A stretch of DNA of 64,000 nucleotides from Marasmitruncus massiliensis (lineage in GTDB: Bacteria; Bacillota; Clostridia; Oscillospirales; Ruminococcaceae), in NCBI RefSeq assembly GCF_900186535.1, contig NZ_FYDE01000003.1, positions 186,001 to 250,000 of the forward strand, in the 5' to 3' direction. The notes beneath the pieces were generated by a model. It was not told where the DNA came from. It did no database searches and worked only from the letters and a program-made list of their open reading frames with translations. Positions 50,267-55,131 of this stretch are shown piece by piece. The translations under genes were made by a program, and so were the position numbers. Positions within the stretch are counted from its first letter, which is position 1. Each line of letters begins with the position of its first letter.

Positions 50267-50545
50267 AAAAAAAATCCGCCCTCGACAAACTAAATTGTCA
50301 AGGGCGGATTGAATCGTTCATCCGCGGTGCCACCTTGATTTGAGAGAGGATAGACCGTCTCTCACACTCGTCGGGATACCAACATATCCCCGGCAACTCA
50401 CGTATGCCTCACGTCGCGGAATACTCAGCACAAAGCCTTTGACCGCGCCCTCCGTGGTCCATTTAACAATCTGCGTTCTGCCGGCTTCTCAGCACCCCGG
50501 CTCTCTGTAAGTGCACGAACTGTTTTTATCTCCACTTCAACGGTT
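50267..50545 (-). promoter_or_regulatory. Tryptophan T-box leader
   Basis: On the minus strand the leader has Stem I (GTTGAAGTGGAG near 50545, CAGAGAGCCGG distal part), a specifier loop with TGG at 50461-50459 followed by ACC, and the T-box bulge motif AAGGTGGCACCGCGGA at 50336-50321. The terminator follows (AATCCGCCCTTGACA pairs with TGTCGAGGGCGGATT, then eight T). Uncharged tRNA-Trp would favour the antiterminator and turn on the trp genes. Confidence 0.95.
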
Positions 50546-50571
50546 TATCTGGATAATATGAAATTTTTTAT

Positions 50572-50600
50572 ATTATATGCCGCCCGACGCGGTTTGTCAA
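50572..50600 (-). promoter_or_regulatory. Consensus sigma-A promoter of the trp operon
   Basis: On the minus strand TTGACA (50600-50595) and TATAAT (50577-50572) are separated by exactly 17 bases. Transcription would start near 50565 and run into the T-box leader. Confidence 0.85.
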
Positions 50601-50850
50601 TAGTGCTTTTGCGAAAAATACAGCCTTAAAATGACGCCGATTACATCATCTTTATACAGAAATGCTTGTAAAATCATGTTTTGGGGACAAAAAATTTTGA
50701 ATAATAATTATGTCAATTATTTTTAAGTATAGAAATGACTGATAATCAGGTTATGCGGATAATAAGGTTTCTGTGAACAGAATATTTAAATACATAACAG
50801 AAAAACTATATGATGAGTCGAAAGACTTATTTAAATAAAGGAGTGATATA

Positions 50851-51411
50851 ATGGCTGATAAAAGCCTTGAAGAAGCAAAAAAACTGAATCAGAAATCCCA
50901 GCAAAGCAGCTCCGGTTCCTCCTCCTCTTCCGGTAGCCAAAGCAGTTCCGGCAGCAATTGGAACCAAAATCTCCAGCAGGCAAAACAGCTCAACCAGCAG
51001 TCCGCCAGTTCCTCTTCCGGACAGAGCGCATTTGGCAGCAGCTATCTGAATTCCGTGAACAACGGCAGCCAGGATCTGCAGCAGGCCAAACAGGCAAACC
51101 AGCAGTATTCGAGCTCTGTGTCCGGACAGAGCGCATTTGGCAGCAGCTATCTGAATTCCGTGAACAACGGCAGCCAGGACCTGCAGCAGGCCAAACAGGC
51201 AAACCAGCAGTATTCGAGTTCTATGTCCGGACAGAGCGGGTTTGGCAGCAGCTATCTGAATTCCGTGAACAACGGCAGCCAGGACCTGCAGCAGGCCAAA
51301 CAGGCAAATCAGCAGTCCGCCAGTGGTTCTTCGTTTACAACGGGTTCCGGTTCAAATCTGGATTCGGTAAAAAAGGAAAATCAAAAATCACAGCAAAACA
51401 AAGGGAAGTAA
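50851..51411 (+). CDS. Repeat-expanded gamma-type SASP-like protein
   Basis: The 186-residue protein is rich in Gln, Ser, Asn and Gly. It contains three near-identical 35-residue repeats (SGQSAFGSSYLNSVNNGSQD, then LQQAKQANQQ...) starting at 51016, 51121 and 51226. The pattern QQAKQxNQQ...GQSxFGSSY matches the gamma-type small acid-soluble spore protein layout (QQVRKQNQQS...GQFGTEF). Gamma SASPs store amino acids in Bacillus spores. The DNA repeats differ at only a few bases, which indicates recent expansion. AAAGGAGTGATATA precedes the ATG. No clear sigma-G promoter was identified. Confidence 0.75.
   Translation: MADKSLEEAKKLNQKSQQSSSGSSSSSGSQSSSGSNWNQNLQQAKQLNQQSASSSSGQSAFGSSYLNSVNNGSQDLQQAKQANQQYSSSVSGQSAFGSSYLNSVNNGSQDLQQAKQANQQYSSSMSGQSGFGSSYLNSVNNGSQDLQQAKQANQQSASGSSFTTGSGSNLDSVKKENQKSQQNKGK
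51016..51330 (+). repeat. Three tandem 105-bp repeats inside the SASP-like gene
   Basis: Units start at 51016, 51121 and 51226, exactly 105 bases apart, in frame. Copies one and two are nearly identical; copy three has a few changes (for example AGCGCA to AGCGGG). Confidence 0.9.
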
Positions 51412-51423
51412 CCTGAAATCATG

Positions 51424-51452
51424 AAAGGACGCCATTTGACGTCCTTTTACTT
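51424..51452. terminator. Small bidirectional terminator
   Basis: AAAGGACG pairs with CGTCCTTT and is followed by TACTTTT. It lies between the SASP-like gene and the end of the convergent DtxR-family gene. Confidence 0.6.
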
Positions 51453-54500: not shown

Positions 54501-54569
54501 ATTGTCGTACGAAAACTCCCGGCTGTGCCGGGAGTTCAAAAAAGCTTTAGCGATGAGTATAGCAAAAAA

Positions 54570-54630
54570 CCTCCTTTTGATATAATGAAGCTGCGGTCTG
54601 CCAACTGCAACGAGACATATCAAAAGGAGG
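54570..54630 (+). promoter_or_regulatory. Hairpin that would hide the tnpA ribosome binding site
   Basis: CCTCCTTTTGATAT (54570-54583) is complementary to ATATCAAAAGGAGG (54617-54630), which contains the tnpA ribosome binding site. IS200 elements are known to keep transposase translation low by such a 5' stem. Confidence 0.65.
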
Positions 54631-55131
54631 AACATTCGACATGAAGACGAATGATATAGATAGTTTAAATCATACGAGCTGAAATTGCAAATACCATATA
54701 GTGTTTGCCCCAAAGTATCGAAGAAAAGTAACATACGGAAATATGCGGGCTGAGATAGGAAAAATACTGAGGGAGTTATGTAACTGGAAACAGGTGGAGA
54801 TCATAGAAGCGGAGGTGTGTCCGGACCATATACACATGTTGGTGAAAATACCACCAAAGATGAGCGTTTCCGGATTCGTAGGATTTCTCAAAGGAAAGAG
54901 TACCTTGCTGATATTTGAGCGGCATGCGAATTTGAAATACAAGTATGGAAACCGGACATTCTGGTGCAGGGGCTATTTTGTGGATACGGCAGGGAAGAAT
55001 GATAAAGCAATAGCCCAATATATCAAAAATCAACTGGAAGAAGATCAGGTTGAAGACCAGATGACACTCAAGGAGTACGTAAACCCGTTTACGGGTAGCA
55101 AGTAACAAACTTTTGCAATTGGCAGACCGTA
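54592..55131. repeat. Inverted repeat flanking tnpA
   Basis: TGCGGTCTGCCAACTGCAA (54592-54610) is matched by TTGCAATTGGCAGACCGTA (55113-55131) in inverted form, 17 of 19 bases. It lies inside the end hairpins of the IS. Confidence 0.6.
54641..55105 (+). pseudogene. tnpA: IS200-type transposase TnpA with an in-frame TGA
   Basis: The frame starts at ATG 54641 (MKTNDIDSLNHTS) and meets TGA at 54680-54682. It then continues as NCKYHIVFAPKYRRK to a stop at 55105. IS200 TnpA proteins have Trp at this place (HTKWNCKYHIVF), so TGG probably became TGA. The rest is intact, with the HUH pair in PDHIHMLVKIPP and the Tyr in AIAQYIKNQL. Without readthrough or a restart the protein would be missing part of the N terminus. 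It is most simply an inactive copy. Confidence 0.85.

Follow-up and report, generated by a model that had tools for sequence, protein, structure and literature searches.

The window analysed here, a stretch of 64,000 nucleotides from the genome of Marasmitruncus massiliensis, contains on its plus strand at positions 50851 to 51411 an open reading frame of 186 codons, starting with ATG, that on reading of its sequence encodes a gamma-SASP-like repeat protein. The frame stands alone on this strand and is flanked by trpE and by the gene of a DtxR-like regulator, both on the minus strand. It is preceded by a ribosome-binding site (AAGGAGTG, containing AAGGAG; 50838 to 50845, plus strand) and followed directly 3' of its stop by an intrinsic terminator-like hairpin (51422 to 51449, plus strand), latter suggesting a transcript of one gene. 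The encoded protein has a predicted pI of 9.5, contains no cysteine and carries a core of the form [SND]-L-[EQD]-[EQS]-[AV]-K-x-x-N-Q-[QK]-[SY] in six copies. The patterns QQAKQxNQQ and GQSxFG, by which the original prediction had likened it to gamma-type SASPs, are both present as described. Other elements were found in the surroundings. Upstream of trpE, a perfect TTGACA-17-TATAAT promoter (50600 to 50572, minus strand) precedes a T-box leader (50273 to 50600, minus strand), which matches RF00230 at 50297 to 50549 with 83.7 bits and an E-value of 1.3e-18, without reaching the gathering score of 93, and which is followed by a strong terminator-like hairpin (50310 to 50273, minus strand). Just downstream of feoB lies an IS200-like element (54514 to 55105, plus strand) with an open reading frame for a Y1 transposase (54701 to 55105, plus strand; PF01797, E 8.9e-35), preceded by a match to the Rfam family STnc490 (54514 to 54626).

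Within the frame, Tandem Repeats Finder delineates an array at 50974 to 51316 with a period of 105 bp, 3.3 copies, 92% matches and a score of 565, the two remaining arrays of the window scoring 73 and 60. The array opens with a partial, more diverged copy (50974 to 51018), which is followed by three 105-bp units at 51019 to 51123, 51124 to 51228 and 51229 to 51333 (all on the plus strand), and all units are in frame. The predicted reading frame and its 105-bp repeats are confirmed. Units 1 and 2 are identical at 102 of 105 positions, leaving three differences, while unit 3 is identical to unit 2 at 92 of 105 positions. Since 10 of these 13 differences fall within the last 17 bases, the first 88 bases of unit 3 are near-identical to those of unit 2 and only its tail is divergent. 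The initial description of three almost identical units thus applies to units 1 and 2 and the first 88 bases of unit 3, but not to the end of latter, and the proposed recent expansion of the repeats is supported by these base comparisons. Changes in repeat number might provide a length marker between strains; our sample comprised one genome per species.

In scans of Pfam and NCBIfam the protein showed no match at E<=10, and consequently none to the alpha/beta-type SASP family PF00269 in Pfam or to the curated gamma-SASP models PF04259 and TIGR01442, which in this respect do not endorse the assignment originally made. Relatives were recovered in a scan of GTDB species contigs, which identified two proteins of 81 and 88 amino acids in a metagenome-assembled genome of Syntrophomonas sp. 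UBA5288 (L002) and in Clostridium thailandense (L003), respectively. Each contains three copies of a core resembling LEEAKKLNQQS, and both terminate in QNKK, the window protein in QNKGK. With a profile built from these three sequences we detected the family at E<=0.1 in 49 of 146 genomes, distributed over 15 of 46 genera, of a taxonomic family (that of G338) that we read as Clostridiaceae because one of its genomes (G535) encodes the sequence of the C. thailandense protein; 47 of the 49 genomes are positive at E<=0.001. Reading of the loci revealed a small open reading frame of the family type in each of the 49 genomes. The homologues in Clostridia that the original prediction had advised to search for thus exist, and the family can be defined as small proteins rich in serine, asparagine and glutamine with two to six copies of the core x-L-[QE]-E-[AT]-[KR]-x-L-N-x-Q-S. 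Cysteine is nearly absent from its members, with a single residue found in L042, and a terminator-like hairpin within 90 nucleotides of the stop follows the genes of 19 of 40 homologues, compared to 6 of 120 shuffles. In one member (L029, 1327 to 1734) an internal duplication of 56 residues, identical at 163 of 168 bases and missing in the congeners L027 and L034, is an independent recent repeat expansion.

The set of homologues was compiled with a script pattern that recovered 41 of 54 loci; among the 13 that it missed, 10 turned out to be members on reading and three (L014 to L016) were attributed to chance. Latter, from the genomes G115, G353 and G210, were dropped with matches located within open frames of 284, 331 and 793 amino acids, of which the frame of L014 alone was read as the matched protein. 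Statistics refer to 40 distinct proteins (L020 duplicates L003), with the 10 members added late being inspected visually and searched for the GPR site only. Outside the Clostridiaceae the family is sparse, as judged by profile searches whose sensitivity is generally lowered by the short, low-complexity motifs. Within the taxonomic family of the window organism, only its own genome (G000) was positive among 297, and a search of the class returned at E<=0.1 6 of 391 genomes, namely G000, two Clostridiaceae and three judged to be chance matches. A search of the phylum with a profile of 15 homologues and the window protein (A2) returned 3 of 398 genomes, comprising G000, G955 and G888, the last of which (L093) was dropped as chance after reading of its 441-residue open frame. 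A protein search of the window genome and 60 relatives, which may be blunted by low complexity and short motifs, found the window protein itself only. In the 10 other genomes of the genus, the best matches of the DtxR-like neighbour are 26 to 35% identical. Among 99 pattern matches in viral contigs there was no relative, and plasmids contained no match to the window protein or its homologue from C. thailandense. A literature search by title and start of abstract, which mostly excluded subscription journals, retrieved among the papers listed neither a description of the family nor a clostridial counterpart of gamma-SASPs, and the family carries no name.

The remaining match of the phylum search, in G955 (E 0.02), is an SspE-type protein (MAKQPNQSQAGTNIQQVRQQNAQSAQGGKGQYGTEFASETNAQEVRQQNQQAEARKGQNSGQQR), a gamma-SASP that passes the cut-off of PF04259. 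Proteins of this type are present in all 61 genomes of the taxonomic family of G955, presumably Bacillaceae, from which we took 30 gamma-SASPs as comparison set. An hhalign comparison of 15 homologues, with the window protein left out, to 12 gamma-SASPs yielded a probability of 93.6% and an E-value of 2.2e-7 over 81 columns, and its score of 42.2 was reached by none of 200 column shuffles of the gamma-SASPs (mean 8.8, maximum 17.4), with the reversed alignment scoring 8.8. A hidden Markov model of the 40 homologues without the window protein, which assigns 61.1 bits to latter, gave at least 12 bits to 16 of 30 gamma-SASPs compared to 0 of 6200 shuffles. In the opposite direction, a gamma-SASP model gave at least 8 bits to 19 of 41 proteins (the 40 homologues and the window protein) compared to 7 of 8200 shuffles. 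The window protein is not among these 19 and obtains 5.8 bits after a composition correction of 56.4 bits, with none of its 200 shuffles being reported. When applied to the 146 Clostridiaceae genomes, the gamma-SASP profile matched at 14 places at E<=1. By coordinates, 11 of these coincide with loci of the family, while those in G516, G463 and G543 fall elsewhere. SASP_gamma is also the library family matched most often, by 11 of 15 homologues, with best E-values of 2.3e-5 in NCBIfam and 1.1e-4 in Pfam. The curated cut-offs are 28.4 bits for PF04259 and 30.65 bits for TIGR01442, and the only score printed for the 15 homologues, that of L003, amounts to 11.9 bits in NCBIfam, below the cut-off of 30.65, with no SASP_gamma match in Pfam. 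Over the 61 genomes comprising the window genome and its relatives, PF04259 had seven matches at E<=1, none above the cut-off and none on the window frame. The likeness to gamma-type SASPs that had been proposed from the repeat patterns is thus supported by profile alignment, shuffles, models in both directions and library matches.

The shared features are also evident on inspection. SspE contains the tandem core x-x-Q-E-[AV]-[KR]-Q-x-N-[AQ]-Q-S, and tandem glutamine- and asparagine-rich repeats of the QEVRQQNAQS form are found in six units in the window protein. SspE itself is an abundant, acid-soluble core protein of dormant spores that leaves DNA unbound and is cleaved by GPR upon germination. 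Like SspE, members of the window family are small, hydrophilic, nearly cysteine-free repeat proteins with mostly high pI, and repeat number varies in both, with the 30 gamma-SASPs ranging from 60 to 241 amino acids. Differences concern core positions 2 and 8, which are leucine in the homologues but alanine or isoleucine and glutamine in gamma-SASPs, the linkers, which are rich in serine, asparagine and methionine instead of glutamine, alanine and glycine, and the overall composition (Ser 20%, Leu 6% and Met 5% compared to Gln 22%, Ala 16% and Gly 12%). Judged by the profile tests in both directions, the similarity of the family to SspE is one that goes beyond composition, and the window protein is gamma-SASP-like and probably homologous to SspE, with the caveat that short repeats rich in glutamine and asparagine can converge. 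We have refrained from filing it as gamma-type SASP because it lacks the GPR site and does not reach the curated cut-offs.

The protease GPR, which the original prediction had connected to the protein, is encoded in the window genome (E 3.7e-67), with its gene being followed by a SpoIIP-like open reading frame, named by eye. The same genome contains a single alpha/beta SASP (E 9e-30, at C3:1588946), the sole match to PF00269 at E<=0.001, whose GPR-type stretch MEAASEV has no equivalent in the window protein. GPR was found in 136 of the 146 Clostridiaceae genomes, including all 49 that are positive for the family, while none of the 10 GPR-negative genomes contains a member (Fisher p 0.014), a co-occurrence that is only suggestive given the relatedness of the genomes. 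The repeats of SspE contain the site (T)E-F-A-S-E, but neither the window protein nor any of 50 homologues carries a cleavage site for GPR, so that the GPR-site check proposed with the original prediction did not come out in its favour. The pattern E-x-[AGST]-[SGT]-[EDQ] occurs in 30 of 30 gamma-SASPs, whereas it was found in none of the 40 homologues, in none of the 10 added late and not in the window protein. A comparison of the window repeat GQSAFGSSYLNSVN with the gamma-SASP example GQGQFGTEFASETN shows that aromatic positions are kept whereas acidic residues are lost. In the linkers of the 40 homologues, a few of which are one residue long due to double-counted units, a hydrophobic residue directly precedes [TSA][SGN] in 94 of 107 cases, while shuffles reach 57.8 on average and 72 at most. 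The motif [MF]T[SNG] is found in 44 of 107 linkers, compared to a shuffle average of 9.5 (maximum 19). This enriched linker motif might constitute a relaxed cleavage site.

Upstream of the frame we identified a forespore-type promoter motif of the sigma-F/sigma-G class (GAATAT - 13 nt - AGAAAAACTA, 50780 to 50808, plus strand), where the two factors were treated jointly, following those parts of PMC3789822 that were accessible. The motif (nnATAT-N13-GGgtAAaaTA) was learned by Gibbs sampling from 30 upstream regions of homologues, obtained from 40 by thinning on shared 8-mers and excluding the window, from which the last 22 bases were removed because an earlier run had settled on the ribosome-binding site. 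It reached a log-likelihood of 312.5, the highest among eight spacings that were each restarted six times, whereas six single-base shuffle sets, run with four restarts at that spacing, gave 184 to 194. The site at 50780, located 71 nucleotides before the frame, ranks first when both strands of the window are scanned (127,944 positions). Its score was reached in 10 of 5000 cases when the 200-bp region upstream of the frame, whose AT-richness (24.5% G+C compared to 51% in the window) favours the motif, was shuffled by dinucleotides. A motif of the same form precedes sspE genes, where the best site is found at -50 to -52 in 28 of 30 cases with spacings of 12 to 15 (exceptions are L118 and L120), and where a score of at least 6 is attained before 20 of 30 genes compared to 7.3% of single-base shuffles, although these 30 genes are related and do not represent 30 independent tests. 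With a plain sigma-F/sigma-G consensus score the upstream regions were not separated from shuffles (3 of 41 at 0.05), a separation that the learned motif alone achieved. A sigma-G promoter had been suggested as a feature to look for, and the sequence motif found agrees with it at the level of the sigma-F/sigma-G class, within which the two are not told apart; use of the putative promoter at 50780 by either factor is plausible. For the alpha/beta SASP gene of the window genome a similar promoter geometry can be placed (TGATAA-13-GCCCATACTA at -87), where this expected site (CATACTA, -87) ranks 10th of 6286 in its locus and is surpassed, within 250 bp of the start, by a site at -211. In four homologues of one genus (L052, L053, L055 and L059), and more weakly in L065, the leader between promoter and start contains an imperfect palindromic sequence (type GCACTGAATATGTACAGTGTAA), which in the four leaders possibly forms a hairpin.

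An AlphaFold2 model based on a 16-row alignment (mean pLDDT 60.7, pTM 0.23) places helices on the core repeats and leaves the linkers loose, a low-confidence prediction supporting no more than that the protein is probably disordered. Other explanations were weighed. The protein could be an unrelated disordered forespore protein of the hydrophilin or LEA type, guarding the spore core against desiccation or crowding, that has converged on similar repeats rich in glutamine, asparagine, serine and alanine and that is not degraded at germination, as might be suspected from the GPR site missing in all 50 homologues, the composition unlike that of gamma-SASPs and the failure of curated models to call the window protein. 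We consider this scenario unlikely, as the similarity is not reproduced by shuffles that preserve composition or permute columns, the alignment to gamma-SASPs over 81 columns is nearly full-length, genome-wide searches from the family to SspE and from SspE to the family meet, and the promoter motif is common to the family and sspE genes.

Repeat-rich proteins with serine, glycine and asparagine and of variable length are common in the outer layers of spores, which would be compatible with a protein of the coat, the exosporium or another mother-cell structure containing disordered repeats. Such a role appears very improbable in light of an upstream motif of the forespore class that matches the regions preceding sspE, and of the absence of cysteine in the window protein and its near absence in homologues; mother-cell promoters of C. 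difficile, moreover, possess their own elements according to the portion of PMC3789822 available to us. Finally, a low-complexity sequence lacking a name in Pfam and NCBIfam might be a chance open reading frame or encode a vegetative disordered protein without any role in spores. To this account we attach hardly any credence, since core and ends are conserved across 15 genera of one family, the gene has its own promoter motif and a terminator-like hairpin, and the family is found in 0 of 10 GPR-negative genomes.

We thus favour as likely explanation that the window gene encodes a forespore-expressed, SspE-related amino-acid store of the spore core, which is transcribed from its own sigma-F/sigma-G promoter and degraded at germination, and whose array has recently expanded. 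Computation shows the existence of the family and its kinship to SspE, the promoter motif, a GPR gene in the genome and the lack of a GPR site, whereas expression, storage function and route of degradation of the window protein are what we infer. Of the original interpretation, the likeness to gamma-SASPs, the promoter motif, the GPR gene, the homologues and the expansion are supported, while the GPR site proposed as a test is missing and the curated models do not call the protein. In the proposed mechanism, RNA polymerase containing sigma-F or sigma-G would transcribe the gene while the spore develops, using a promoter of its own and giving rise to a soluble, largely disordered protein of the spore core. 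This protein belongs to a family that occurs in Clostridiaceae and rarely elsewhere (in the window genome and one Syntrophomonas) and that is probably related to the SspE of Bacilli. Its modules rich in glutamine, asparagine and serine, held on flexible linkers, would serve as the amino-acid store of the dormant core, and the recent tandem duplication would have enlarged the array to provide more such modules. At germination the modules would be broken down, in analogy to SspE, for which a storage role is described, as is rapid degradation of SASPs at germination, in the accessible text of PMC8452069 and PMC7649253. Because the site used in Bacillus (TEFASE) is missing, we propose release at a relaxed linker site composed of a hydrophobic residue, a small residue and then serine, glycine or asparagine, most often M-S-S or M-T-S, which might be cut by GPR or by another spore protease.

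In the parts of PMC3533761, PMC8452069 and PMC7985256 that we could access, gamma-type SASPs are said to be missing in clostridia or, in case of PMC7985256, to be known from Bacillus alone, bearing out the published view on which the original prediction had drawn, whereas the window family occurs in Clostridia. An SspE-related family in 49 of 146 Clostridiaceae genomes would correct this reported absence. It is possible, albeit somewhat more doubtful than probable, that Clostridia possess their own widespread gamma-SASP-like stores, which were missed by curated models and low-complexity filters and which are mobilised without a canonical GPR site, either at a relaxed linker site of the M-[TS]-S type or by a different protease. 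If true, the two classes would rely on the same amino-acid store for outgrowth but on a different chemistry for its release. Such a family would also be a candidate reserve of amino acids for the outgrowth of clostridia and would raise the testable question of how this reserve is broken down without a GPR site.
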